64,000 nt of DNA, taken from NCBI RefSeq assembly GCF_014695725.1, contig NZ_JACJOU010000014.1, positions 1-64,000 on the forward strand, read 5' to 3'. Under the pieces are notes generated by a model. The model saw only the letters and a program-made list of their open reading frames with translations, did not search any database and was not told the origin of the DNA. Positions 2,867 to 56,838 of the stretch are shown in pieces (within the stretch, counting starts at the first letter, position 1; every line of letters starts with the position of its first letter). The translations under genes and the position numbers were made by a program. The stretch is from Microcoleus sp. FACHB-672 (GTDB lineage Bacteria; Cyanobacteriota; Cyanobacteriia; Cyanobacteriales; Oscillatoriaceae).

Positions 2867-4879
2867 TTAGCCTAACAGTGCTTTTGCCTTAGCTAAAACA
2901 TTGTCAGCGCTGAAGCCAAACTTCTCTAGACAGACACCGCCTGGAGCAGAAGCACCAAAGCGATCAATACTTACGGTATCGCCTTCCGTTCCGACGTACT
3001 TGTGCCAGCCAAAACTGCTGCCGGCTTCTACAAGTAAGCGCTTGGTAACAGATTTCGGCAGAATAGACTCTTTGTAAGCCGCATCTTGTCCATCAAACAC
3101 TTCGGTTGAAGGCATCGAAACGACACGGACTTTTTTACCTTCAGCCGTGAGTTTCTCGGCTGCTGTTACGCACAGGCTCACTTCTGAACCCGTACCAATC
3201 AAGATAACATCCGGTGTTCCCTCAGACTCAACCACCGTGTAGCCACCTTTTGCCACGCCTTCAATCGATGTGCCGGCTAAATTGGGCACATTTTGACGCG
3301 TGAAGGCTAACAAGGTGGGATGGTTTTGCTTGGCTTTTTCAATCGCTAATTTATAAGCACCAGAACATTCGTTTCCGTCTGCAGGACGAATCACCGTCAG
3401 GTTAGGAATCGCACGCAGGGAAGCAAGCGTTTCAATCGGTTGGTGGGTTGGGCCATCTTCACCTTGTCCGATAGAGTCGTGGGTCATCACCCAAATTACC
3501 CCAGCTTGGGACAAGGCAGATAAGCGAATGGCAGCCCGCATATAATCTGTGAAGATCAAGAAGGTTGCGCCGTAGGGAATTAATCCAGATTGATGCAGCG
3601 CGATCCCATTACAGATTGCGCCCATACCATGTTCCCGCACACCAAAGTGGATGTTGGGGTTTTGATATTGCCCTTTCTGGAAGTCACCACTTCCTTTGAT
3701 TTCAGTCAGGTTGGAGTGGGTTAAGTCAGCGGAACCCCCGATCAGTTCAGGCAAAACGGATGCCAATTTGTTGAGGCAGTTTTCGGAGTGCTTGCGGGTT
3801 GGCAGCGCCTTGTCTTCGGCGGTGTAGGTGGGGAGAACCTTATCCCAACCGTCAGGCAATTTGCCGCTGATGTAGCGGTCGAATTCAGCCCCTTCTTGGG
3901 GATATTTAGCTTTGTAGTCGGAAAAAGTCTTGTTCCACTCTGCTTCATAGCCTGCGCCGCGTTCCACGGCTTTGCGGGTATGGTTGAGTACATCTTCTGG
4001 GATTACGAAAGGCTCGTGTTGCCAGCCCAGTTTTTCGCGAGTCAATGCAATTTCATCTGCACCAAGGGCGGCACCATGAACACCGGCAGTGTTTTGTTTG
4101 TTGGGCGAACCATAACCGATGATGGTTGTCACCTTAATCATGGTTGGCTTGTCGGTGACGGCTTTAGCTTCGTTAATTGCTTTCTCAATGGCGGCTAAAT
4201 CGGTATTGCCATCTTCGACGTGGAGGACGTGCCAACCGTATGCTTCAAACCGCTTGGAAACATCTTCTGTGAAAGCCACATCGGTAGAACCATCGATGGA
4301 GATGTGGTTGTCGTCGTACAACGCGATGAGTTTACCTAATCCCAGGTGGCCGGCGAAAGAACACGCTTCACCAGAAATACCTTCCATGTTGCACCCATCA
4401 CCCAAAATCACATAAGTGTAGTGATCGACGATTGTGCTATCGGGCTTATTATACTTGGCCGCTAGGTGAGCTTCTGCCATTGCCAAACCGACGGCGTTGG
4501 CAATTCCTTGACCGAGAGGACCCGTGGTGACTTCCACACCTGGAGTCATAAAGTTTTCCGGGTGCCCAGGGGTTTTGGATTCCCACTGACGGAACTGCTT
4601 GATGTCTTCTATGGTGACGCTGTCGAAGCCCATCAGGTAGAGCAGGGCGTACTGTAGCATGGAGCCATGTCCAGCTGATAGCACGAAGCGATCGCGGTTA
4701 AACCACTTAGGATTTTTTGGGTTATACCGCATAAAGCGATCCCACAGCACAAACGCCATCGGCGCAGCGCCCATCGGTAGCCCTGGGTGACCGGACTTTG
4801 CCTTCTCTACGGCGTCAACGGCCAGAAAGCGGATGGAGTTGATGCAAAGTTCTTCGAGTGATTGGGTGGCAACAGGCAT
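2867..4879 (-). CDS. tkt: Transketolase
   Basis: 670 residues, the normal length for a bacterial transketolase. It transfers two-carbon ketol units between sugar phosphates, using thiamine diphosphate and a divalent metal, in the Calvin-Benson cycle and pentose phosphate pathway in the cytoplasm. Visible landmarks include [12 protein letters not shown] near the N-terminus, the ThDP/metal motif [13 protein letters not shown] near residue 160, and the transketolase signature region [11 protein letters not shown] near residue 470, followed by IRPADGNE. The ATG at 4879 fits family starts. It is the third gene of a minus-strand series after acpP and fabF, with a 197-bp spacer to fabF, so it may also have its own promoter; transcription ends at the hairpin just downstream. 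Confidence 0.97.
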
Positions 4880-10678: not shown

Positions 10679-10799
10679 GGGAGAGAAGGATGCCGGCATC
10701 TTGACTGATTGCCGGCATTCCCTGAATTATATTTCCTAATGCGCTTGGGAATTAGTAGATAGTTATTCTTGTATTTTGTTTGAGTCTGGGCTAAGATTT

Positions 10800-42610: not shown

Positions 42611-43315
42611 TCAGTCAAGTTGTCGGCTTTCAAACAAGTCTTTTTTTAAATCTAAAACTTTGGGCTTCTCATAAGGCTTTCTCAGTTCCAGAGATAGCCA
42701 CTTGGCGAACTCTGCTTCAAACTCAAAAGCCTCCCGTTCCATGATATTGTGCCGATAGCTTTGTCCCGCCCGCTCGTATTCCTTAAAATATTCATAACCA
42801 AATTCATTTAAACTGCCCAATTTTTCATACTGCTCAACGTGAACTAGCTCATGGGCGAGTAAAATTAATTGCTTAACACTCCCTCTTTTATAAGCCGATT
42901 TTACATAAATTTTATCCCCATAAACCTGAGCATTAGACTTGCCAAAATTTAATCTTAAACTCGCAGCCGCCCATTCATCTAGTAATGTGGCATTATAAAC
43001 AACATCTACCCGATCAACTAAATCCCCAAAATGGGGCCGCAAGTATTCCTTCTGAATTTCATCTAAGCCTTGGCCTTTTCCATTATGTGATGTCATCCAT
43101 TGAGCTGCTGCCTGATATCCGCCAGCACCCACCTTTCCCCACGCTGCCTCGGAATACTTTTTCGGGACTTTTCCTTTCCCCAATTTTACCGCAAGAGTTT
43201 CAGAAGAATATTCAATATCAATCGAATTATTAGCTAAAGGATAATAAATTCCTAAAACAAAAATCGCTAAGCTGAGCAACGCTCCGCCAATGCCAATTTT
43301 TTCAGTTAGTTTCAT
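42611..43315 (-). CDS. Membrane-anchored HELVH zinc-metallopeptidase-like protein
   Basis: 234 residues. One N-terminal membrane helix (about 9-27) is followed by a soluble domain. The zinc motif HExxH is at His155-Glu156-Leu-Val-His159 in ILLAHELVHVEQY, in the style of DUF4157-type domains. An acidic helix follows (EREAFEFEAEFA near residue 200) that could supply a third ligand. It probably faces the periplasm. The substrate is unknown; DUF4157 domains are also found in contractile injection effector proteins, but nothing else of such a system is here. Confidence 0.72.
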   Translation of the reverse strand: MKLTEKIGIGGALLSLAIFVLGIYYPLANNSIDIEYSSETLAVKLGKGKVPKKYSEAAWGKVGAGGYQAAAQWMTSHNGKGQGLDEIQKEYLRPHFGDLVDRVDVVYNATLLDEWAAASLRLNFGKSNAQVYGDKIYVKSAYKRGSVKQLILLAHELVHVEQYEKLGSLNEFGYEYFKEYERAGQSYRHNIMEREAFEFEAEFAKWLSLELRKPYEKPKVLDLKKDLFESRQLD

Positions 43316-44485: not shown

Positions 44486-44769
44486 AGTTTCTACCCACCA
44501 ACAGCGATTTCTAAATAAATATATCCAGTGTTTCCCACAATTACAAACTCCCTTGCCGCCAAAAAAACAGAAAAATCCCTGTTGCGCCTCCACTTTGCGC
44601 GGTTTTCCTGGGGAAGCGCTGCCGGCGCTGAAAACTCATCGAGACGCAACCAGATCGATGCGGCCTTGATAAAATTATTAACAATGCTATCGTTTTGTCC
44701 TATAAAGTCCCTAAAAGCAGATCGGCTGCCGATTGATACCGCTGAGTGTTGTTCATCCCTTCTTGGTTC

Positions 44770-45348
44770 ATGATTCTAACCTTTAGTATTACTCCTACCT
44801 TGAGTGCCTTTTTGCCATCCCTGCCCCTGGATAGCCTGTTATCCACCCAGGGGATCATGGTGATGCTGCTGGCTGCCTATGCCGGGGCGATGTGGATGTT
44901 TCTCACCAGCGCCCCCAAAGTTCACACCATCATGGTGTCCGATCTGGAAGTCGCGCGACAGTTTTATGAAGGTTTGCTGGATCTGCCGGTGGCAGATGTG
45001 CCCCTGCACTACTACTACAACTACGAGCAAACCCTCGGTGCCACCGGCATCGATCCCCTGTATATGTCCACCACTATGGGAGCAACCCCCACAAGAAATC
45101 TTGATACCCCAGACGGATTGTGGTATCAAATGCAAAAAAATACCCAATTGCACATTATTTCAGGAGCGAGTCTCGGTCAAAAAAATCGGCAGCGTCATGT
45201 CTGTTTTGACAGCGAGTGTTTGGAACTGGTGCTGATGCGTGTCCAGACACGAGGCATTAAATACAAAATTCGTCGGGAAAAGCCGCTGAATTTTTTGGTC
45301 AAGGATCTTGAAAGTCGCGTGCTTGAGATATCTGAAGTCTCCAATTAA
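44770..45348 (+). CDS. Membrane-tethered VOC (glyoxalase-fold) protein
   Basis: 192 residues from the ATG at 44770 (an in-frame TTG at 44746 is less likely). Residues 1-48 contain a membrane segment (IMVMLLAAYAGAMWMFLTSA). From about residue 50 comes a VOC domain: KVHTIMVSDLEVARQFYEGL, LPVADVPLHYYYNYE, LHIISG and RHVCFDSECLELVLMRVQTR. VOC proteins use metal for isomerase, dioxygenase or resistance reactions, or only bind ligand. An N-terminal membrane anchor is unusual for the family. The substrate is unknown. Confidence 0.75.
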   Translation: MILTFSITPTLSAFLPSLPLDSLLSTQGIMVMLLAAYAGAMWMFLTSAPKVHTIMVSDLEVARQFYEGLLDLPVADVPLHYYYNYEQTLGATGIDPLYMSTTMGATPTRNLDTPDGLWYQMQKNTQLHIISGASLGQKNRQRHVCFDSECLELVLMRVQTRGIKYKIRREKPLNFLVKDLESRVLEISEVSN

Positions 45349-45660: not shown

Positions 45661-48600
45661 ATGAACCCCCACACCGGCTCTCTAGATCCTAACCCTTCTG
45701 AGGATTCAGACACTTCTCTGCGGCAGCAGTTGGCACAGTGGCAAGCGAGATGCCAGCAAATGGAAACCGCCCTCGCGCAAACCGAAGCCGAACTCAAACA
45801 ATACCGGCAGCAGGTAGAGCATCTGGCGCAAAACAGTGCCGGTGAAACAGCAACCTTGATTGCTTCCTTACAAAGCGCTCTCAACCCGATTGTCACCGCA
45901 GCCGGCACATGGCGGGATGACAACCCCATCTTTGAAGAGGCGCAGATGGCAGACAGCGTTTGCATTCCTGTAGCGTGCTTAAATACAACCAGCGTTAGGC
46001 AAGATATTCTCGACTGTCAAAGCACCGAAGCAGCACTGCGCGAGAGCCAGCAACGGTTGTACACCATCATCGGCAATTTGCCTGGAGTCGTCTATCGCTG
46101 GGTGTTTGATGCCGCCGGCAAAATTTCTATCCCCTATGTCAGCACCGGCTTGTTAGAACTACTCGGCATTTCGGCAGAGGAAAGGATGGCACATCCTGAA
46201 AGCTTGTTCGATGCAGTTCATCCTGAGGATCTCGCGCCTTTGCAAAAGGCACTGGCAACCTCAAGGAAAACGCTGGCACCCCTCAATCATCAATACCGTC
46301 TCCGTACCCCTTCAGGACAGTGGAAATGGCTGCGGGCGATTGCACGGGTACACGCCACAGACACCGGCGAGATCGTCTTTGACGGATTGAACCTGGATAT
46401 CACTGCCCACAAGTTTGCTGAAGAGGCGCTGCGCGAGAGTGAAGCCATGAATCGCGCTTTAATCTCGGCGCTTCCTGATCTCCTGTTCCGCATCGCCAGA
46501 GATGGCACCTTTTTGGACTGCATCCCTGCCGCAGATATCGCGATGGATGTACCCCTTTATGAGTTTTTAGACAAAAAAGTAACAGACCTACTGCCGGCTG
46601 CGGTAGCGGTAGAATTCATCAACGCCATCGAGCTAGCTCTGCAAACCGGCAACACCCAACTCCTTGAATTTCAGATGCCGGTGCAAGGCAATTCCTTCGA
46701 TTACGAAGCCCGGATCGCCGCTAGTGGCAAAGCTCGAAATGAAGTTTTAGCGATTGTGCGCGACATTACAGATCGTAAGCAAGCTGAGCGCTTGTTGCAA
46801 GTGCAAATACAGCGCACGGATGTGATTCTGCAAACTGCTCTCGATGGCTTCTGCATTCTCAATCTAAGCCGGCACTTTCTGGAAGTTAACCCGGCATTTT
46901 GCGTCCTTGTGGGCTACTCGCGGCAAGAACTCCTTGGAATACACGTCAGTGTTTTAGAAGCCGTTGAAAGCCCCCTAGCCTGCCCCAAATACATCAAAAC
47001 CCTGATTCAAACCGGCTCGGCTCGATTTGAACTGGTGCTGCGTCATAAAAACGGGAAAACGGTGAGTGCAGAAGTCAGCATTACCTTTGCCGAAATTAAT
47101 CAAGAGAGATTTTTCTTTGCCTTTGTTCGCGATATCAGCGAACGTAAACAAGCGGAAGAGGAACTGCAACGGCAAGCGCAAATTATTAGCCAGATCCATG
47201 ACTCAGTAATTTCTACCGATTTAGAGGGTTATATCACCAGTTGGAATTCAGGTGCAGAAAGATTATTTGAATATTCAAAAGCAGAAGCAATCGGGCAGAA
47301 TATCTCTTGCCTCTACCCCTTAGAACACCGAGAAGCTGTGCGAGAGCGAGTGTTTTATCCTGCTCTAGAAAAAGGCAGTCATGAAATAGAATTGCTGAAG
47401 CTTAACAAGAGCGGAGAAACTCTCTGGGTTCATTTGTCGCTGTCGCTGCAAAAAAATTTGGCCGGTGAGAACATCGGAATGATCGGTTACTCGATTAACA
47501 TTAGCGAACGTAAACGAGCAGAAGAAGCACTCAGGGAAAGTCAAGAACGCTTCCGCCAGCTTGCAGAAAACCTCAGCGATGTATTTTGGATGATGAATGC
47601 CGACAAAACGCAGTTCCTCTATGTCAGTCCTGCCTACGAGCAAATTTGGGGCCGAACTTGCGAGAGTTTATACGAGCAACCTTCCTCTTTTGTAGACGCC
47701 ATCCATCCAGATGATCGCCAGAGCATCATTACCCTCTGTAAAAACCAAAACCAAGACAATTTTGATCAAGAATATCGAGTCATTCAGCCCGACGGCTCAG
47801 TTCGTTGGATCAGAACCCGCGCCTTTCCAGTTTGTAACGAACAGGGAGAAGTTTACCGCATCGTCGGCATCTCCCAAGACATCACCCTCGCCAAGCAAGC
47901 AACAGAAGAACGGGATCGCTTTTTTAGTCTTTCTCTCGATATTTTAGGAGTTGCCGGTTTTGACGGCTATTTCAAGCGTGTAAATCCCGCTATCTCTACC
48001 ATTCTTGGCTATACCCCCGAAGAATTTCTCGCAATCCGGTTTCTAGAGATTATTCATCCCGACGAGTACGACGTTACCGTAGCAGAGCTAAAAAAATTAA
48101 GAAACGGAAATCCAACATTTTATTTTGAAAACCGCTACCGCTGTAAAGATGGCGCTTACAAGTGGATATCTTGGACAGCATTTCCGGTTCTAGAAGAACA
48201 GTTGATTTATATAGTTGCTCGCGATATGACAGAGCAGAAACTAACCGAAGCAGCACTTACAGAAAACCATGAAAAATACAAGCTATTATTTGAAAGTTTC
48301 CCCATTGGTATTTCAATAACAGATGAAGTTGGCAATATTATTGATACGAATGCTGCTTCAGAAAAAATGTTGGGAATGCCCCGAAAAGAACAGATCGAAA
48401 GAAATTGTGAAAGCCCAGAATGGTATAGAATACACGCTGATGGAACACCGATGCCATTGCATGAGTTTCCCTGTGTGAAAGCTTTGCGAGAAAACAAAGT
48501 TTTTGAAAATGTAGAATTTGGACTTGTTAAAGACAATCAGAAAATTACCTGGCTCAGTGTTACCACCGCTCCCATTCCCCTTGAAGGTTATGGGGTGGCA

Positions 48601-51465
48601 ATTGCTTATACTGACATTACTGAACGCAAACTGGCAACAGAAGCATTACGCCGCAGCGAACAAAAATTTAGAACCCTAGCCGAACATATTCCTGATATTA
48701 TTGCTCGCTTTGATCGACAATTACGCCATCTCTATGCGAATCCCGCTGCTGAAAGAGCAAGTGGATTGTCGCCTCAAGGATTAATCGGCAAAACCAACCG
48801 CGAGCTAGGCTTTCCAGAAACCATTGTATCTGCTTGGGAAAAAGCAATGAAGCAGGTATTTGAAACCGGCTCTGAAGCGGTTATCGAATTTGAGTTTGCC
48901 ACCGCTCATACAATTAAATATTATGAAGCTCGAATCGTACCAGAATTTTCCATAGATGGGGAACGGCATCCAGACGGGGAGGTGCAATCAACTTTGTGCA
49001 TCACTCGCGATATGACTGAGCGCAAACAGATGGAAAATTCGCTAAAAATTGCTCAGGCTCGTCTGGAACATTTGCTCACTGCTAGCCCAGCCGTCATCTA
49101 CAGCTGCACATTATCAGAGGATTACGGTGCCACCTTTATCAGCAAAAACATCAAGACTCAACTAGGCTACGAAGCGCGAGATTTTATAGAAAACTCAAGT
49201 TTCTGGATTGAGCGTATTCATCCAGAAGATGCCACTAGGGTTCTTGCCCAGATGCAAAGGGTATCTGAAAGGGGGCAGGGCACCTTTGAATATCGCTTTC
49301 AACATCAGGACGGAACTTATCGGTGGATGTATGAGCAGACGCAGGTTGTGCGCGACGAGTCCGGCAACCCTTTGGAAGTCGTTGGTTTTTGGATAGATAT
49401 TACCGAACGCAAGCAGGCAGAGGCTCAGCTAATTCGCATCAGCCAAGCGGTGGAAAGTGCTAGCGATGCAGTGAATATTGTGGATATAACGACGCAACAT
49501 ATCTACCAAAACCCAGCGTTTCAAGAATTGTTTGGTTACACGATTAAGGAACTTGTCGCCTTTGGCGGTGCATCGATTCTCTTCTGCGACAAGGCGGTTG
49601 CAAAACAAGTGTTTGAGACAATTAGCCAGGGGGGCTTTTGGAGTGGAGAAGTCAAGATGCAAAGCCGGCAGGGAAAAATCTTAGACATCTTGCTGCGGGC
49701 GTATGCTATTAAAGATAATTCCGGTCAGATGATCGGGCTAGTTGGTATTCATACAGATATTAGCGAACGCAAGCGAACTTTGGAAGCGCTGCAAGAACGA
49801 GAAATGAGATTTCGCACATTAACGGAAACCGTTACAGCCGCGATCTTCATTTCTCAAGGCACCCAGTTGCGCTATGTCAACTCGGCAGCCGAAGAACTCA
49901 CCGGCTACACGCGAGAAGAGTTGCTTGCCGGCGGCACAGAACTGATCCACCCCAAGTTTCGAGAATTCTTTATCAATCGAATAGGAGAGGGATTTTCTCT
50001 GCCCTACCTGCGCCAGCAAGGTCAGCAACTCGCTTCGCGCTATGAATTGCAACTGCTGACCAAAACCGGCCAAGAACGTTGGGTAAACTTGTCAGTTGCC
50101 CTCATGGAGTTTGATGGGCAAATTGCTGCCCTTTCTGCTGCTTTTGATATTACCGAGCGCAAGCAGGCAGAGCAATCTCTTAAATATCGCCTTGTCTTGG
50201 AACAACTGATCAGCGATATCTCAACTCACTTTCTCAACCTGCCGCCGGCTGAGATTGATAAAGGCATTAATGAGGCGCTGTATGCCCTTGGAGAATTTAT
50301 CAATGTTGAGCGCACTTATGTGTTTTTGTTCAACGAATCCGGCACCGAGATGAGCAACACCCATGAATGGTGTGCCCCCGGCATTGAACCTTACATCCAC
50401 AAATTGCAAAATGTGCCGGTGAGTACCTTTCCTTGGCTAGTGGAAATCCTTCGCCGGGGCGAAGTGATTCAAATCTCTGATCTGGCTGAACTGCCACCGG
50501 AAGCTAGGGCGGAAAAAGCTGAGTGTGAGTTGGCAGGCATTCAATCAATGGTGAATGTCTCCCTCGTGGCCGGTGGAGAAGTTGTGGGATTTATTGGCGG
50601 TGATAGCGTACCCGCCGGCAAAGCCTGGACAGAAGACCATATCACCCTGCTAAGAATTGTTGGAGAAATTATTGTGACGGCAATGGAACGCCGGCGCGCC
50701 CAAGAGGAAAAAACGCAACTGATCGCCTCTCTCGAAGAACGGGCGGCAGATTTGGCGCGTTCCAATGCCGAGTTAGAACAATTTGCTTATGTTGCCTCCC
50801 ACGACTTGCAAGAGCCATTGCGTGCCGTCACCGGCTACACTCAGCTCTTAGCCAGACGCTATAGCGGCCAACTGGATACCAAAGCTGACGAATATATTGC
50901 CTTTGCCGTTGATGGCGCAACTCGGATGCAGAAACTTATTCAAGACTTGCTGCTGTTTTCTCGCGTCGGGAGGCGGGCTAAAGCCTATAGGCCGGTAGAA
51001 TTGGAAAGTGTCTTGAACACGGCTGTGGCGAATCTCCAGGTTGCGATTGCAGAAACTAGCGCCACCATTACCCACAGCGAGTTGCCAACTGTCCAAGGTG
51101 ATTCCACACAATTGGTGCAATTGTTACAAAACATTATTAGTAATGCAATCAAGTACCGCAGCCTAGAGCCACCAATTATTCATATCAGCGCTGAGCGACA
51201 AGACGAGCAATGGCAGTTGTCTATTTGTGATAATGGGATCGGGATTGATCTCAAATACGCCGAGCGGATTTTTCTCGTATTTCAGCGCTTGCACACGCGG
51301 GAAGAGTATCCTGGCACCGGCATCGGTTTGGCTATTTGCCAAAAGATTGTTGAGCGGCACGGAGGTAGAATTTGGGTTGATTCGCGTCTAGCTGAAGGCT
51401 CAACCTTTTATTTCACGATTCCTGATGGGAAAGAGCTTCATGAGGAACACGACAGCCATCAATAA
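45661..51465 (+). CDS. Giant soluble histidine kinase with 11 PAS domains and a GAF domain
   Basis: 1934 residues with no membrane segment. A coiled coil (about 10-60) is followed by eleven PAS/PAC units in a row (about 120-1515), most ending in a DITERK(Q/R)AE linker; several have the HPED motif of PAS_3. Then come a GAF domain (about 1520-1680, YVFLFNESG, VNVSLVAGGEVVGFIGGDS), HisKA with His1714 (ASHDLQEPLR) and HATPase (NIISNAIKY, DNGIGID, GTGIGLA). The kinase core is of the phytochrome-like type. No bilin-binding Cys is obvious in the GAF. The PAS units could bind flavin, haem or small ligands, but none shows the LOV-type NCRFL motif. It is the first gene of a four-gene operon; the next gene overlaps its end. 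Confidence 0.95.
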   Translation: MNPHTGSLDPNPSEDSDTSLRQQLAQWQARCQQMETALAQTEAELKQYRQQVEHLAQNSAGETATLIASLQSALNPIVTAAGTWRDDNPIFEEAQMADSVCIPVACLNTTSVRQDILDCQSTEAALRESQQRLYTIIGNLPGVVYRWVFDAAGKISIPYVSTGLLELLGISAEERMAHPESLFDAVHPEDLAPLQKALATSRKTLAPLNHQYRLRTPSGQWKWLRAIARVHATDTGEIVFDGLNLDITAHKFAEEALRESEAMNRALISALPDLLFRIARDGTFLDCIPAADIAMDVPLYEFLDKKVTDLLPAAVAVEFINAIELALQTGNTQLLEFQMPVQGNSFDYEARIAASGKARNEVLAIVRDITDRKQAERLLQVQIQRTDVILQTALDGFCILNLSRHFLEVNPAFCVLVGYSRQELLGIHVSVLEAVESPLACPKYIKTLIQTGSARFELVLRHKNGKTVSAEVSITFAEINQERFFFAFVRDISERKQAEEELQRQAQIISQIHDSVISTDLEGYITSWNSGAERLFEYSKAEAIGQNISCLYPLEHREAVRERVFYPALEKGSHEIELLKLNKSGETLWVHLSLSLQKNLAGENIGMIGYSINISERKRAEEALRESQERFRQLAENLSDVFWMMNADKTQFLYVSPAYEQIWGRTCESLYEQPSSFVDAIHPDDRQSIITLCKNQNQDNFDQEYRVIQPDGSVRWIRTRAFPVCNEQGEVYRIVGISQDITLAKQATEERDRFFSLSLDILGVAGFDGYFKRVNPAISTILGYTPEEFLAIRFLEIIHPDEYDVTVAELKKLRNGNPTFYFENRYRCKDGAYKWISWTAFPVLEEQLIYIVARDMTEQKLTEAALTENHEKYKLLFESFPIGISITDEVGNIIDTNAASEKMLGMPRKEQIERNCESPEWYRIHADGTPMPLHEFPCVKALRENKVFENVEFGLVKDNQKITWLSVTTAPIPLEGYGVAIAYTDITERKLATEALRRSEQKFRTLAEHIPDIIARFDRQLRHLYANPAAERASGLSPQGLIGKTNRELGFPETIVSAWEKAMKQVFETGSEAVIEFEFATAHTIKYYEARIVPEFSIDGERHPDGEVQSTLCITRDMTERKQMENSLKIAQARLEHLLTASPAVIYSCTLSEDYGATFISKNIKTQLGYEARDFIENSSFWIERIHPEDATRVLAQMQRVSERGQGTFEYRFQHQDGTYRWMYEQTQVVRDESGNPLEVVGFWIDITERKQAEAQLIRISQAVESASDAVNIVDITTQHIYQNPAFQELFGYTIKELVAFGGASILFCDKAVAKQVFETISQGGFWSGEVKMQSRQGKILDILLRAYAIKDNSGQMIGLVGIHTDISERKRTLEALQEREMRFRTLTETVTAAIFISQGTQLRYVNSAAEELTGYTREELLAGGTELIHPKFREFFINRIGEGFSLPYLRQQGQQLASRYELQLLTKTGQERWVNLSVALMEFDGQIAALSAAFDITERKQAEQSLKYRLVLEQLISDISTHFLNLPPAEIDKGINEALYALGEFINVERTYVFLFNESGTEMSNTHEWCAPGIEPYIHKLQNVPVSTFPWLVEILRRGEVIQISDLAELPPEARAEKAECELAGIQSMVNVSLVAGGEVVGFIGGDSVPAGKAWTEDHITLLRIVGEIIVTAMERRRAQEEKTQLIASLEERAADLARSNAELEQFAYVASHDLQEPLRAVTGYTQLLARRYSGQLDTKADEYIAFAVDGATRMQKLIQDLLLFSRVGRRAKAYRPVELESVLNTAVANLQVAIAETSATITHSELPTVQGDSTQLVQLLQNIISNAIKYRSLEPPIIHISAERQDEQWQLSICDNGIGIDLKYAERIFLVFQRLHTREEYPGTGIGLAICQKIVERHGGRIWVDSRLAEGSTFYFTIPDGKELHEEHDSHQ

Positions 51466-51901
51466 ACCCATTGAAATTCTATTAGTGGAAGATTCCCCCA
51501 GCGATGCTTACCTGATGAACGAAATTTTCAGGGAAACTAGCTCGGTTGAACACTTGCACATTGTCCGTGATGGTGTTGAGGCGCTGCAATTTTTGCGCCG
51601 GCAGGGTCACTATCAATCCGCGCCGGCTGTCGGTTTGATCCTGCTCGATTTGAACTTGCCTAAGCTGGACGGTAAGGAATTGCTCTGCGAAATAAAATCT
51701 GATCCCCTTCTGCAAACAATCCCTGTGGTGGTTCTCACCACCTCTCCTGCCGCTGCTGACATCCTTAGCAGCTATAAACACCATGCAAACTGTTATATTA
51801 TCAAACCTTTAGATTTAGATGAGTTTATCAAGATCGTCCAAGCAATTACCTATTTTTGGCTCAGCGTTGTTACCTTGCCCTCAGATGCAGGAATGGACTG
51901 A
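51440..51901 (+). CDS. Rcp1-like single-domain response regulator
   Basis: 153 residues from the ATG at 51440, which has GGGAAAGAG upstream; an in-frame ATG at 51425 is also possible. It is a CheY-type receiver with acidic residues in LLVEDSPSD, phosphoacceptor Asp70 (LILLDLNLP), Thr in VVVLTTS and Lys in YIIKPLDLDEF. The insert after beta-3 is typical of Rcp1-type partners of phytochrome-like kinases. It overlaps the kinase gene by 26 bases, so it is very probably its direct phosphotransfer target. It has no output domain. Confidence 0.95.
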   Translation: MRNTTAINKPIEILLVEDSPSDAYLMNEIFRETSSVEHLHIVRDGVEALQFLRRQGHYQSAPAVGLILLDLNLPKLDGKELLCEIKSDPLLQTIPVVVLTTSPAAADILSSYKHHANCYIIKPLDLDEFIKIVQAITYFWLSVVTLPSDAGMD

Positions 51902-52111
51902 TTGATCTCAAAACAGTTTTTTTATTTTTTAATAAAAAATAAATTATGTTACCCGCCAAGGTGCAAACCCGAAACTTATCTTAAAATTTGTAATAGCAGA
52001 AACTCACGGGAAAGCGAGCTAAAGAGCAGCAAAAAAAATTTGCCCTACAAGCCGAACCCTATAGAAAGTCTGAACTGGCATGGTTGCCGACAATATGGCT
52101 GACTTACAAGT
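51902..52111. other. Spacer inside the signalling operon
   Basis: About 210 bp between the response regulator and the first receiver-kinase. It is AT-rich at the start with a short A/T stretch; no ORF, repeat or terminator is clear. Confidence 0.35.
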
Positions 52112-54559
52112 ATGAAAAATGCTTTGATTCAACTTCTTTTAGTAGAAGACAACTGCGCGGATGTGGCTATCTTAAATGAGCTTTTGGCAGAAGACCCAGC
52201 AGTGCCGGTTCAGGTGACGCATGAAAAACAACTCACTGAAGTTCTCAACCGGCTCCAGACACAAGCGTTTGACATTATTTTGCTGGATCTTTCGCTTCCA
52301 GACGTGCAGGGACTAGAGACGCTCCTACAGGTGCAATTGGCTGCGCCGGCTCTGCCGATTGTGGTGATGACCGGCCTAGATAATGAAGAGTTAGCTCTGG
52401 CAGCGGTTCGGCAAGGAGCGCAAGACTATCTGATTAAAGGGCAAGTTAACTGCCAGCTACTCGTGCGTGCTATCCGCTATGCCATTGAACGCAAACGAAC
52501 CGCAGAAGCTTTGGGGCAGCAAGTTGAGCGAGCGCATCTGTTGGGGTCAATTTCCCAGCGTATCCGCCAGTCGTTGGATTTAGGGGCAGTTTTGCACACA
52601 ACGGTCACGGAAATCCGGCATTTTCTCCACACAGATCGCGTGCTGGTTTACCGCTTTAACCCAGACTGGAGCGGGCTCGTTGTAGCAGAATCCGTAGCCA
52701 ATGATTGCAACGCAATTTATGGAATTACCATTCAAGAAACCTGCTTTATTCAACAAGGCTATGCGCGCCGCTACGGAGAGGGACGAGTGCGGGCTATCGA
52801 GAATATTTATGAGGCCGGTTTAGATCCGTGTCATCTCAAGTTATTGGCTAGTTTACAGGTCAGAGCTAACTTGGTTGTTCCCATTCTTTTCAATGAAGAA
52901 TTAAAAGTTAAACAGGGAGAAAAAACCCTCGATTCTGCAACTTCAACACCCAAGTCGCAATTGTGGGGGCTGCTGATTGCTCACCAGTGTCGCGGGAATC
53001 GATCCTGGCAACCTTGGGAACTAGATCTGCTTACTTCCCTTGCAACCCAAGTGGGAATTGCCATTCAACAATCAGAACTTTACCAGCAGGTACAGCAGCT
53101 CAACACCGGCTTAGAAACCCAAGTGCAAGAGCGCACCGCCGAGCTACAACAAGCGCTTGAACAACTGCAACAGGCGCTGCATCTGGAGGCGATGCTAAAG
53201 CGGATTACCGACAAGGTTCGCGATAGTTTAGATGAAGACCTAATTTTGCCAACGGCTGTGCGGGAGTTAGCTTTAGGATTGGGCGCACAAAGCTGTCAGG
53301 CTGCTTTGTATGATCTTGAGCAAGGAACGGCAACGATCCGCTATGAATACAGCCAAATAGAGCCGGCGCTGACGGGGCATGAGGTAGATTTGTCTGACTT
53401 TGCCGAGATATACTCTCAGTTGTTGCCTTGTTTAGCCGACAAGGACGCGGATAAGCCGGCGGTTCAATCGAGAAGCTTTCAACAAAATCCACCCTTTCAG
53501 TTTTGCGAGTTTGTCCCCACGCGCAATGAGTCTCGTTCAATGATTCTCGCCAGCGCTTTAGTTGACGATCAAGAAGTGCTGGGGGATTTGTGGTTGTTCA
53601 AGCCGGCAGATGAAACTTTTAATCAATTAGAAATCCGGCTGGTGCAGCAAGTCGCCAATCAATGTGCCATCGCTTTACGGCAAGCCAGACTCTACCAGGA
53701 AGCTCAAGCGCAAGTTAAGGAACTCGAACGGCTTAATCGCTTAAAAGATGATTTTCTCTGTACCGTTTCCCATGAACTTCGCACACCGATTGCCAATATA
53801 AAAATGGGGATTCAGATGTTGGAAGTCGCCATTAGCCACCAGCAATCTGCTGTCAGATCTGTGCTGTCTGCACAGAATTCCCCAGTCCATGATCACGCTT
53901 ACAGTTCAATTACTGATAAAACCACTCACTACTTCGAGGTTTTGCACGACGAGTGTAACCGAGAAATTAACTTGATTAACGATCTACTCGACTTGCAAAG
54001 ACTCAATGCCGGTGTTCAACCTTTAGAGTTGAGCGTGATTCAAATGCAAAATTGGATTCCCCATCTCGTTGAGCCATTTACACAACGAGTTGAGAGTAGC
54101 GAGCAAATCCTATCTATTGATATTTCTCCTGCACTGCCTCCAGTTGTCTGTGACACTTTAGGATTAGGTCGGATCTTGACAGAGTTACTGAATAATGCTC
54201 ATAAGTACACACCCCCAGGCGAGCACATCACACTTAAAGTTTGCGCTCAAGAAGGTAAACTGCAATTACAAGTTATAAATTCAGGCATTGAAATTCCCAG
54301 CACTGAGTTAGGCCGCATTTTTGATAAGTTTTATCGCATCCCCAGTAACGATCCCTGGAAGCAAGGAGGAACAGGCTTGGGGTTAGCCCTGGTAGAAAAA
54401 CTTAGCGAACATTTAGGCGGAACGATCCAAGTGGCGAGTGCTTTGGGTGAGACTTGCTTTACAGTAGAATTACCGCTCACCCCAGCCGCCGTCACCGCAT
54501 CGGCTTTGGAGTTACAGGCGAGAGATGGACGCTCAAACTATCAAAATTCTGCTAGTTGA
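52112..54559 (+). CDS. Receiver-GAF-GAF-histidine kinase
   Basis: 815 residues. It starts with a receiver (1-125, phosphoacceptor Asp59 in ILLDLSLPD), then a phytochrome-style GAF (about 145-330, SQRIRQSLDLGAVLHTTVTE, DRVLVYRFNPDWSGLVVAES, WGLLIAHQCRGNRSW), a coiled coil (about 330-365, QVQERTAELQQALEQLQ), a second, divergent GAF (about 370-530), HisKA with His554 (TVSHELRTPIANIK) and HATPase (NNAHKYTPP, GTGLGLALVEKL). The receiver is upstream of the kinase, the reverse of ordinary hybrids, so it may be an input that accepts phosphate from elsewhere. It ends inside the next gene. Confidence 0.94.
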   Translation: MKNALIQLLLVEDNCADVAILNELLAEDPAVPVQVTHEKQLTEVLNRLQTQAFDIILLDLSLPDVQGLETLLQVQLAAPALPIVVMTGLDNEELALAAVRQGAQDYLIKGQVNCQLLVRAIRYAIERKRTAEALGQQVERAHLLGSISQRIRQSLDLGAVLHTTVTEIRHFLHTDRVLVYRFNPDWSGLVVAESVANDCNAIYGITIQETCFIQQGYARRYGEGRVRAIENIYEAGLDPCHLKLLASLQVRANLVVPILFNEELKVKQGEKTLDSATSTPKSQLWGLLIAHQCRGNRSWQPWELDLLTSLATQVGIAIQQSELYQQVQQLNTGLETQVQERTAELQQALEQLQQALHLEAMLKRITDKVRDSLDEDLILPTAVRELALGLGAQSCQAALYDLEQGTATIRYEYSQIEPALTGHEVDLSDFAEIYSQLLPCLADKDADKPAVQSRSFQQNPPFQFCEFVPTRNESRSMILASALVDDQEVLGDLWLFKPADETFNQLEIRLVQQVANQCAIALRQARLYQEAQAQVKELERLNRLKDDFLCTVSHELRTPIANIKMGIQMLEVAISHQQSAVRSVLSAQNSPVHDHAYSSITDKTTHYFEVLHDECNREINLINDLLDLQRLNAGVQPLELSVIQMQNWIPHLVEPFTQRVESSEQILSIDISPALPPVVCDTLGLGRILTELLNNAHKYTPPGEHITLKVCAQEGKLQLQVINSGIEIPSTELGRIFDKFYRIPSNDPWKQGGTGLGLALVEKLSEHLGGTIQVASALGETCFTVELPLTPAAVTASALELQARDGRSNYQNSAS

Positions 54560-56054
54560 AGATAACCGCGCCGACATCGTGATGCTGCAAGAGTTGCTCT
54601 CGGAAGTCAGCACGGTTCAGTTTAACGTCGTGCCGGCACAGTTTTTGAGTGCGGCAACCACTCAGCTGAAACAAGCCAGTTTTGATGTCATTTTACTGGA
54701 TCTCTCGCTCCCAGACGCTCAAGGGCTGGAGACGATAGTACAAGTGCAGGCAGAAGCCCCCTCTGTCCCAATCGTAGTCATGACAGGCTTAGACAATGAA
54801 GAGTTAGCGGTGGACGCAGTTCGCCAAGGGGCGCAGGATTACCTCGTGAAAGGGCAGGTAGACGCCCATTTGTTAGTTCGCGCCATCCGCTATGCGATTG
54901 AGCGTAAGCACAGCTTAGAGGCGCTGAGAGAGAGTGAGGAGCGCTTCCGCCTGCTGGTTGCCGGTGGCAAGGATTATGCTATTTTTACCCTCGCCCCCAA
55001 TGGATGTGTGATGAGTTGGAATGCTGGGGCGCAACGCACCCACGGCTACCCAGCTGAAGAAATTATCGGCCAAGATTTTTCCGGTTTCTACGTGCCTGAA
55101 GAAATTGATGCCGGTAAGCCGCAGCAAGATTTACAACTAGCAACCGCTGAAGGGCGATTTGAAGAGGAAGGCTGGCGGGTGCGTAAAGGCGGCTTGCGGT
55201 TTTGGGCGGCGGTTGCCATCAGCACGTTACGCGATGAAAGTGGGCAGATGCGAGGCTTCGCCCAAGTCACGCGTGACTTAACGGAACGCCAGCGAGCTGA
55301 GGTGGAAATTCGCAAGCTCCATGAAGATTTAAAGCGTCGAGCTGTTGAATTGGAATTTGCCAACAAAGAATTGGAAGCTTTCAATTATTCAGTCTCCCAC
55401 GATCTGCGAAATCCCCTGTCAGTAATTGATGGTTTTAGCGCATTGCTCTTAAGAAACTATGCCCAAAAGCTAGACGAGAAAGAGCGACACTACCTGCAAC
55501 GGATACATCATGCCTGCAAGCGCATGGAGCAGCTAATCGAAGATTTATTGACTCTGTCGCGCATCTCTCGCAGTAAGGTGCAGATTGAGACGGTTCAGTT
55601 AAGTTCCTTGGTAGAAAAAATTGCCTTGGTGCTACAGCAAACACAGCCGCAACGCCAAGTTGAGTTTCGCATTGCTGCCGGTGTAATGGCTCAGGGAGAT
55701 GGGCGTCTATTAGAAATTGTTCTGGAAAATTTATTAGGAAATGCTTGGAAATATACCGGAAAAAAAGCGCACACTTGCATTGAATTTGGCACGATCCAGC
55801 AAGAAGGGCAAACTGTGTATTTTGTGCGTGACAACGGTGCCGGTTTTTCTATGGCTGATGCGGATAAATTGTTCTATGCTTTTCAGCGGCTGCACCAACA
55901 AACTGAGTTTGAAGGCACCGGCATTGGGCTAGCGACTGTACAGCGGATTATCCACCGGCACGGGGGCAAGATTTGGGCTGAAGCGGTTGTTGATGCCGGT
56001 GCGACGTTTTACTTTACGCTGGCACAGGGAGGAGTCCTGAGCGCTGAGTCCTGA
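54525..56054 (+). CDS. Receiver-PAS-histidine kinase
   Basis: 509 residues. The N-terminal receiver (1-125, Asp59 in ILLDLSLPDAQGLET) is very like that of the preceding gene. It is followed by a PAS domain (about 140-260), a short coiled coil, HisKA with His292 (SVSHDLRNPLSVIDGF) and HATPase (ENLLGNAWKYTGK, DNGAGFSMADADKLF, GTGIGLATVQRII). The core is phytochrome-like. Its ATG lies 35 bases inside the previous gene, so translation is coupled. As in its neighbour, the receiver comes first. It is the last gene of the operon. Confidence 0.94.
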   Translation: MDAQTIKILLVEDNRADIVMLQELLSEVSTVQFNVVPAQFLSAATTQLKQASFDVILLDLSLPDAQGLETIVQVQAEAPSVPIVVMTGLDNEELAVDAVRQGAQDYLVKGQVDAHLLVRAIRYAIERKHSLEALRESEERFRLLVAGGKDYAIFTLAPNGCVMSWNAGAQRTHGYPAEEIIGQDFSGFYVPEEIDAGKPQQDLQLATAEGRFEEEGWRVRKGGLRFWAAVAISTLRDESGQMRGFAQVTRDLTERQRAEVEIRKLHEDLKRRAVELEFANKELEAFNYSVSHDLRNPLSVIDGFSALLLRNYAQKLDEKERHYLQRIHHACKRMEQLIEDLLTLSRISRSKVQIETVQLSSLVEKIALVLQQTQPQRQVEFRIAAGVMAQGDGRLLEIVLENLLGNAWKYTGKKAHTCIEFGTIQQEGQTVYFVRDNGAGFSMADADKLFYAFQRLHQQTEFEGTGIGLATVQRIIHRHGGKIWAEAVVDAGATFYFTLAQGGVLSAES

Positions 56055-56343
56055 GGGAATGAGGATCATTATTAGCTACGTCCTATAAAAAACGACCCGA
56101 TTAAACTATTGACTAAAAAATCAACACGGGTTATAATAGAGTTTAGTAAGCCCAATTTAGAGCAGTTTACAAGTTGCCACGACAAAGGTGAAAACCGGGT
56201 TTGAAAGATGCTTTTTTCTTTCAAACTTGAGAAAGTTTGCTGAAATATGCCCTGATAGATTGTCGGCAACTTACTGATGTGAAAACCGCTAAATAACTCA
56301 GGCTTACTTATTTAATGGCTCAATTTTTGGAGGAAAAATTCGC
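56055..56343 (+). promoter_or_regulatory. Structured leader of the KTSC gene
   Basis: About 290 bp. An inner hairpin has stem GTTTGAAAG (56199-56207) and CTTTCAAAC (56218-56226) around a T-rich loop. An outer pair, AAGTTGCC (56171-56178) and GGCAACTT (56265-56272), could enclose it. A good ribosome-binding site, TGGAGGA, stands before the GTG start. It looks like a regulated 5' leader or a processed RNA; no known riboswitch family was recognised. Confidence 0.4.
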
Positions 56344-56838
56344 GTGAAGTTATCCAAAATTGATTTAACCAATATCCTCGCTATCGGCCATTCTAACGGT
56401 CAGTTGGGGCTGTTAATCGACCGGGGGGAGGAAGTGGAATATATTGAAATTTCCGCGCCGGCTGCCGCTTACAATGGACTGCAACAAGTTCATTACATCG
56501 CAAATAATGAACTCAGTGCGTTTCCGCCTAAGCTGGAAAACCAAGAAGAAATAGAAAGTGCTCAGTCAATTGCCATGTTGCCGGTTGCCTCATCTATGGC
56601 AAATGGAATTGGATATGATGAGGAGCGAAAAGTTTTACAAGTCGAATTTAAAAACGGATCGGTTTATCAATATAGTGAAGTAGAGTCTGAAACTTGGGAA
56701 TGTTTTCAGAGCGCGGATTCAGTCGGACAGTTTTTCAATGCTGAGATTAGAGGTAGTTATTACTCTGAGCGCATTGATGAGGTGAATATGATTGCCACCG
56801 GCACGTTAGATTGCAGCAATTTTGAAGAAGATTGCTGA
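56344..56838 (+). CDS. KTSC-domain protein
   Basis: 164 residues, GTG start with TGGAGGA upstream. The C-terminal ~65 residues are a KTSC domain (SSMANGIGYDEERKVLQVEF, NGSVYQYSEVESETWECFQS, VGQFFNAEIRGSY). KTSC domains often appear alone or fused to lysyl-tRNA synthetase or phage-related proteins, and their role is unclear. The N-terminal half (IGHSNGQLGLLIDRGEE, IEISAPAAAYNGLQQ) is a separate, cyanobacteria-type region. It follows the signalling operon but has its own leader. Confidence 0.85.
   Translation: MKLSKIDLTNILAIGHSNGQLGLLIDRGEEVEYIEISAPAAAYNGLQQVHYIANNELSAFPPKLENQEEIESAQSIAMLPVASSMANGIGYDEERKVLQVEFKNGSVYQYSEVESETWECFQSADSVGQFFNAEIRGSYYSERIDEVNMIATGTLDCSNFEEDC

Follow-up and report, generated by a model that had tools for sequence, protein, structure and literature searches.

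The first 64,000 nucleotides of contig NZ_JACJOU010000014.1 of the cyanobacterium Microcoleus sp. FACHB-672 (assembly GCF_014695725.1, 6.37 Mb in 34 contigs; this whole stretch is called the window below) encompass four co-directional open reading frames on the forward strand, which we denote K1, RR, K2 and K3. K1 is a sensor histidine kinase with a long array of PAS domains, RR is a lone response regulator of the Rcp1 type, and K2 and K3 are histidine kinases that are each headed by a receiver (REC) domain. These genes probably encode a branched two-component cassette, in which K1 would serve RR as well as the receivers of K2 and K3, with K2 adding a light signal. The locus is a local version of a widespread kind of cassette; only the combination of sensors is new and peculiar to the genus, and the history of the wiring is plausible.

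The list of open reading frames confirms the four genes, their order and strand, and the overlaps between K1 and RR (51440/51465) and between K2 and K3 (54525/54559), all of which had been described in an earlier note made from the sequence alone. The aspartates named there, Asp70 of RR and Asp59 in the N-terminal receivers of both K2 and K3, are correct and intact, and so are the phospho-accepting histidines His1714 of K1, His554 of K2 and His292 of K3. The Rcp1-like nature of RR is borne out by its match to PDB entry 1i3c (E = 2.2e-42), and Response_reg is the sole Pfam family detected in this protein. RR and K2 do not overlap; the 210-nucleotide spacer between them was omitted in the earlier description.

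Under the proposed mechanism, K1 would sense signals through the PAS array, autophosphorylate at His1714 and pass the phosphate to Asp70 of RR and to Asp59 of both K2 and K3. Phosphorylation of the receivers would switch the kinase cores of K2 and K3 up or down and, because K2 is predicted to read light as well, through a cyanobacteriochrome GAF domain, this protein would merge the K1 signal with the light signal. K2 and K3 would then act on regulators encoded elsewhere. We infer each phosphotransfer in this locus by analogy with described systems and from sequence comparison, and the final outputs of K2 and K3 are likewise putative. REC-headed kinases are common and their inputs are rarely known; the present locus is a testable case, in which a single protein would be expected to receive both light and the signal of a multi-PAS kinase, and in which the takeover of one receiver domain seems to have lengthened the pathway.

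Phosphotransfer from aspartate to aspartate requires a histidine intermediate. A serial phosphorelay from K1 via RR to K2 and K3, which the gene order alone would suggest, is unlikely because no HPt domain is found among the Pfam matches, and we consider it very improbable, the more so as, in the ExsG system, both branches begin at the first kinase (PMC3899027). Thus, the sequential half of the earlier proposal of a branched or sequential relay finds little favor, and the branched half gains from this precedent and from the covariation of docking residues described below.

The branched scheme has a demonstrated precedent with the same gene order, namely, the BphP1-AgR-ExsG-ExsF system of Rhizobium NT-26 and Agrobacterium, in which a sensor kinase is followed by a single-domain response regulator and then by a REC-headed kinase. 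In Rhizobium NT-26, the kinase core of BphP1 phosphorylates AgR as well as the receiver of ExsG, the latter at Asp62, and the phosphate of ExsG goes to ExsF, not to AgR (PMC3899027); in A. tumefaciens, agp1, agR and exsG are reported as one operon (PMC1552090). The likeness is drawn from published descriptions and not from sequence, and there are clear differences. BphP1 is a phytochrome, whereas K1 is a kinase with a PAS array; in ExsG, of the HWE type, nothing but a receiver precedes the kinase, whereas K2 and K3 combine HisKA cores with sensor domains; and a second REC-kinase stands in the present locus where ExsF, a response regulator, stands in the BphP1 system, with no obvious target of K2 or K3 encoded beside them. 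A further parallel, again by description rather than by sequence, is LvrA-LvrB of Leptospira, in which an upstream kinase controls a receiver-headed kinase (PMC13269768). Because receiver phosphorylation inhibits ExsG (PMC3899027) but activates LvrB (PMC13269768), we leave the sign of the putative effect on K2 and K3 either way.

Recurrence of the gene order

Rcp1-type response regulators were gathered by similarity of the regulator alone, in three sets. The order set, drawn from relatives within the same taxonomic order, consists of the regions around the first 76 of 97 hits and one later hit, with 77 regulators scoring above 85 bits in 75 of 76 regions. For the phylum set, 214 genomes were drawn, 48 of which held a regulator at E ≤ 1e-36, altogether 59 hits; 15 of these were already part of the collection, and 40 of the 44 new ones were added. 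The named set consists of the best 80 of 573 confirmed loci, 55 of which hold a regulator above 85 bits, and is biased upward because the alignment of K3-type proteins used as the query was built partly from cassettes. The output type of the REC-headed proteins (kinase or GGDEF) was assigned by BLAST thresholds.

In the order set, a kinase lies directly upstream of the regulator in 70 of 77 cases, and the full order of kinase, regulator and REC-headed protein is present in 57, the last protein having a kinase output in 48 cases and a GGDEF output in six, with three unassigned. The phylum set yields an upstream kinase for 39 of 41 regulators and the full order for 34, with a kinase in the last position in all 34. 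Among the best 80 of 573 named loci, the order is found for 39 of 61 regulators (38 or 39, by slightly different handling of the reading-frame ends), with 30 kinases, five GGDEF proteins and four unassigned; these cassettes come from Cyanobacteriota, Pseudomonadota, Acidobacteriota, Chloroflexota, Bacteroidota, Gemmatimonadota, Armatimonadota, Planctomycetota and other phyla. As an adjacency control, 57 of 75 and 36 of 39 regulators have a REC-headed protein next downstream, compared to 62 of 378 and 34 of 185 among the other genes; this background rate is inflated by the counting of upstream kinases.

The locus studied here falls squarely within this pattern, with a co-directional kinase, a single-domain Rcp1-type regulator and a REC-kinase. 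The three genomes of the genus have tandem REC-kinases after the regulator, as do named loci L051, L078 and L087, where the kinase assignment comes from BLAST; the tandems in L170, L098 and L107 are mixed or of the GGDEF type, and no tandem REC-kinases were seen in the phylum set. According to the Pfam matches, the upstream kinase in L116 and L131 is a true phytochrome (PAS_2-GAF-PHY-HisKA-HATPase), the downstream protein in L116 is REC-HisKA-HATPase, and some of the REC-headed proteins downstream of regulators are REC-GGDEF(-EAL). The kinase cores of the two phytochromes match that of K1 with 282 and 284 bits, respectively.

Two further cassettes deserve mention in their own right. The genome of Microcoleus sp. 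FACHB-672 itself contains a second cassette of the Rcp1 type (L142, G000:C33:331425-331856), with a 541-amino acid kinase, a regulator and a 1481-amino acid REC-headed kinase. In Methylotenera mobilis (L098:9398-15262), a protoglobin-PAS kinase, a regulator and two tandem REC-GGDEF-EAL proteins form one run.

Covariation of docking residues

For the analysis of covariation, 130 cassettes were reduced to 84 non-redundant ones (less than 80% identity), 68 of which contain a REC-kinase. Mutual information was compared to that in shuffled pairings, with REC-X denoting the receiver of the gene that follows the regulator; the block consists of kinase and receiver positions taken to be involved in docking. 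Within this block, more than outside it, the DHp domain of the upstream kinase covaries with the regulator (z = 3.97) and with REC-X (z = 5.57) in the 84 cassettes; in the 68 with a REC-kinase, the values are 4.35 and 4.62, compared to 1.07 and 1.00 for the control, in which the DHp domain of the REC-kinase itself was paired with the regulator and with its own receiver, respectively. The 40 top-scoring pairs include nine inside the block for the regulator (2.6 expected) and six for REC-X (2.1 expected), and one for the REC-kinase paired with its own receiver (1.8 expected).

The pattern is most readily seen in the charges at position His+19 of the kinase and acid+10 of the receivers. Of the 84 kinases, 63 carry a basic, 16 an acidic and five a neutral residue at His+19. 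Opposite the 63 basic kinases, the regulator is acidic in 54 cases and neutral in nine, REC-X is acidic in 51 and neutral in 12, and neither is ever basic; opposite the 16 acidic kinases, the regulator is basic in all 16 and REC-X in 13, the remaining three being neutral. For the pair His+30/acid+6, opposite charges occur in 43 (regulator) and 45 (REC-X) of the 84 cassettes and like charges in two and one, respectively. In the control, the REC-kinase's own His+19 carries a like charge with the regulator in eight and with its own receiver in seven of the 68 cassettes. The regulator and REC-X also resemble each other in helix alpha-1 more within a locus (0.406 identity) than between loci (0.278), whereas in the remaining 120 columns of the joint alignment the values are 0.247 and 0.243; the likeness is confined to alpha-1, so a recent duplication of the regulator does not explain it. 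In the locus studied here, K1 has Arg at His+19, and RR, K3 and K2 all have Glu at acid+10.

Several observations call for caution. Under circular shifts of the block, the p value is 0.10 for the regulator, which is the positive control, and 0.044 for REC-X, and the negative control, the DHp domain of the REC-kinase versus the regulator, is equally enriched, with six of the top 40 pairs inside the block (2.0 expected); hence, the block statistics alone are not decisive. Both residue pairs were chosen post hoc among the highest-ranking ones of the scan. On the tree built from the catalytic domains of the kinases, parsimony gives six sign changes at His+19, and only one independent contrast falls on well-supported branches, so the charge counts overstate independence. 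In the studied locus, the residues of the second pair (Glu in K1 versus Tyr in RR, Val in K3 and Ala in K2) do not match, and therefore the second bridge is absent. With these reservations, the docking charge of the upstream kinase appears to shift in step with those of the regulator and of the receiver encoded by the next gene, which supports branched phosphotransfer.

These findings bear on the alternative that two independent systems lie side by side, with K1 serving only its own regulator, in the manner of Cph1-Rcp1, K2 and K3 fed by other kinases, and the adjacency being historical. The 210-nucleotide spacer between RR and K2, with its well-conserved block, would fit such a division, as would the many other PAS-bearing frames in the genome. 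However, the order of kinase, regulator and REC-protein recurs in many phyla, and the upstream kinase covaries with REC-X (z = 5.57) as it does with the regulator (z = 3.97), compared to 1.07 for the REC-kinase core and the regulator, even if this control does not stand apart in the top-40 count; we therefore regard the two-system alternative as unlikely. For the branched cassette, the conservation of the gene order together with the concerted charge changes suggests which kinase would drive a REC-headed protein and predicts branch points in many genomes.

The predicted light sensor K2 and its origin

The first GAF domain of K2 is a predicted light sensor of the cyanobacteriochrome type that might bind a chromophore. 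Residues 9-328 of K2 have their best PDB match in PPHK of Leptolyngbya sp. JSC-1 (6oap, E = 1.1e-66), further cyanobacteriochrome matches of the GAF domain include RcaE (7ckv), and Cys240-His241 of K2 aligns with the Cys-His of PPHK, so that this domain combines similarity to known cyanobacteriochrome GAF domains with the canonical cysteine. Cys240-His241 and the surrounding sequence are kept in all three members of the genus. The photoreceptor-type GAF domain thus sits in K2 rather than in K1, and it is absent from the earlier note. K2 shares the PPHK-like architecture of a receiver, a cyanobacteriochrome GAF domain and a kinase, the N-terminal REC and GAF domains being the part that is alike; unlike PPHK, it has a further GAF domain and a loop insertion, and PPHK has Tyr in place of Cys211 and, in the receiver, Arg in place of the Glu at acid+10. 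PPHK is, judging by the title of the paper, reportedly a dual-sensor histidine kinase with OR logic.

The second cysteine, Cys211, lies within the sequence ETCF, where PPHK has DQYF. Cyanobacteriochromes of the DXCF subgroup carry a DXCF motif with a second cysteine; K2 has the cysteine but not the exact motif, which counts against the light-sensing role proposed here, and its chromophore behavior is uncertain because of this difference. Among five more distant relatives of the K2 body, the sequence is DPCF in L015, L017 and L018 and DHCF in L019, and L016 lacks the motif. A degenerate cyanobacteriochrome that lost bilin binding, leaving K2 governed by the receiver alone, would account for ETCF in place of DPCF or DHCF of the relatives (L016 aside) and for the loop insertion relative to PPHK, but sits poorly with the intact and genus-wide Cys240-His241 and its neighborhood, and seems to us improbable.

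Among 139 regulator-adjacent REC-headed proteins (57, 46 and 36 in the three sets), eight have a cyanobacteriochrome-like GAF domain scoring above 60 bits, namely, three from this genus, the REC-GGDEF proteins of L030, L168 and L170, and the REC-kinases of Tychonema (L036, 1107 amino acids) and Nostoc (L104, 1125 amino acids). In L036 (regulator at 3702) and L104 (regulator at 10762), position His+19 of the upstream kinase is acidic, and both the regulator and the REC domain have Arg at acid+10; the receiver of PPHK also has Arg there, in the alignment of the PDB match. These PPHK-like proteins therefore appear to be opposite to K2 in docking charge. As a separate observation, in L030, L168 and L170 a REC-GAF-GGDEF protein is encoded just downstream of an Rcp1-type regulator, as if light and phosphorylation jointly gated the synthesis of cyclic di-GMP.

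The whole neighborhood is retained in both other genomes of the genus that were searched, with identities of 94-96% for RR, 91% for K2, 92-93% for K3 and 72-73% for K1 (residues 246-1934). The four-gene set, the search for which the earlier note proposed, is present again in both congeners. In a search for K2 across 60 relatives, in which 16 candidates were scored for each genome, a match from residue 1 across the whole protein was found only in the three members of the genus; a full-length K2 was found in none of the other 57 relatives, four of which match the REC-GAF part alone. A K1-like kinase, a regulator and K3 stand side by side, with no K2, in the sister genus (G003, G006), and hence the K1-RR-K3 group looks older and K2 looks like a later addition in this genus.

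A further relative, G004, keeps K1 and K3 adjacent without the regulator, the 425 nucleotides between them (L022:4222-4646) containing no open frame for it, which again tells against the proposed branching. This case, and the finding by Pfam of a receiver only in RR, would suit the notion that the lone regulator acts mainly as a phosphate sink, or competitor, that tunes the supply to K2 and K3. RR is, however, strongly conserved, at 94-96% in the genus and in the cassette generally; we regard the sink role, which is compatible with the branched model, as possible but not probable.

Where, then, might K2 have come from? At E = 1e-40, two matches to K2 come from plasmid records, and neither extends over 80% of the protein. 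Among the 16 of 312 candidates scored in the same genome, seven other places match the K2 body or a part of it, and none includes the receiver; for the receiver, the REC domain of K3 is the only other match in this genome at E ≤ 1e-20 (134 candidates scored). By visual inspection, the relatives of the body differ at the front: the receiver of L015-L017 is of another kind, and L018 and L019 have other domains there. A tree of 101 receivers groups the K2 and K3 receivers of the family together (SH-aLRT support of 83) and places the K2 receivers nearest to the K3 receivers of the sister genus (94), the exact branching being tentative at 144 columns. Both the tree and the matches within the genome are consistent with a GAF-GAF-kinase having gained a receiver of the K3 type, and K2 is thus probably a member of an expanded paralogous family that acquired such a receiver, an event that would have brought it under the control of K1.

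This suggests, tentatively and with a little less than even confidence on our part, a history of receiver capture: a light-sensing kinase would have been placed under the multi-PAS kinase K1 by means of a K3-type receiver that already bore the K1 docking code in alpha-1, yielding a four-protein branched circuit with a light-dependent branch. The same proposal holds that Rcp1-type cassettes share one code between regulator and REC domain, the charge of which reverses in concert, and that light-gated REC-kinases joined such cassettes at least twice, with opposite codes (Glu in K2; Arg in L036, L104 and PPHK). If it is true, one master kinase would serve three receivers, one branch being light-dependent, and the phosphate donor of PPHK is predicted to be a kinase that is acidic at His+19.

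Sensor array, spacer and neighboring genes

The coordinates of the features of the locus are collected in Table 1.

Table 1. Genes and parts of the K1-RR-K2-K3 locus, in positions of the window
Feature	Position	Strand	Description and basis
K1, sensor histidine kinase, 1934 amino acids	45661..51465	+	11 PAS, GAF, HisKA (His1714), HATPase
K1 array of 11 PAS modules	46033..50181	+	linker pattern, segment-wise scan for PAS families
K1 GAF, no sign of bilin-binding type	50269..50682	+	Pfam GAF, residues 1537-1674
K1 kinase core, H-box SHDLQEP	50773..51426	+	HisKA 1705-1769, HATPase 1813-1922, His1714
RR, lone Rcp1-type response regulator, 153 amino acids, Asp70	51440..51901	+	Pfam, PDB match
Spacer RR-K2, 210 nucleotides	51902..52111	+	conserved in the genus
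K2, REC-GAF-GAF-HisKA-HATPase kinase, 815 amino acids, His554	52112..54559	+	open reading frame, Pfam
K2 receiver, Asp59, K3-type	52112..52543	+	match within the genome, receiver tree
K2 first GAF, predicted cyanobacteriochrome type	52577..53065	+	Cys240-His241 at the canonical chromophore position; Cys211 in ETCF (DXCF-like) motif
K2 second GAF (GAF_2)	53234..53677	+	Pfam
K3, REC (Asp59)-PAS-HisKA (His292)-HATPase kinase, 509 amino acids	54525..56054	+	open reading frame, Pfam

RR has an alternative in-frame ATG start at 51425, which would add five amino acids. The eleven PAS domains and the GAF domain that the earlier note assigned to K1 are present: eleven PAS linkers were detected by pattern, ten of the eleven segments were scanned singly and each matched a PAS family, and the remaining segment contains the best PAS_8 stretch (residues 1383-1424). 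We considered the number eleven as a special feature and rejected it. The K1 orthologs of the congeners are shorter (1757 and 1761 amino acids) and show nine linkers by the same pattern, and the K1 frame is only the eighth longest among the PAS_4-bearing frames listed for this genome (150 of 393 candidates scored), seven being longer, so an 11-PAS kinase is unexceptional here. An array of eleven PAS domains is not unique, and the number varies. The PAS repertoire of the genome is large in general, with PAS_4 in all 150 scored candidates of the 393 found and frames of up to 2680 amino acids.

K1 was likewise rejected as a phytochrome. No PHY domain is present among its Pfam matches, the stretch that holds its GAF domain (residues 1515-1690) matched no PDB chain at E = 0.001, and, unlike Cph1, it lacks the PAS_2-GAF-PHY arrangement. 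The resemblance to Cph1-Rcp1 lies in the Rcp1-like regulator (1i3c) and in the same order in relatives with true phytochromes; the earlier label of a phytochrome-style operon therefore suits the gene order, given the phytochromes upstream in L116 and L131, but not K1 itself.

The spacer may divide the locus into two transcripts, another point against a single coupled cassette. It possibly holds a second promoter, for K2 and K3, with the block 51980-52019, in which 95% of the positions are identical in the three congeners, as the candidate; the conservation of the spacer ranges from somewhat below to about equal to that of the coding flanks. Between the genes, neither a sigma70-like promoter pattern nor a terminator-like one was found, and the counts for the whole region are below the shuffled means. 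The spacer was also considered as a structured RNA, a candidate rejected on a fold z-score of 0.42 and no Rfam match at E = 1.

Among the neighboring genes, a frame of 200 amino acids at 44746-45348 is retained ahead of K1 in the two congeners and G004, and a Pfam scan of it at E = 0.01 gave no match. A KTSC-domain gene lies at 56109-56838, and the highest-scoring sigma70-like site of the region (11/12) is found in front of it. Finally, a 234-amino acid frame at 42614-43315 weakly matches the eCIS_core domain (E = 3.5e-05).

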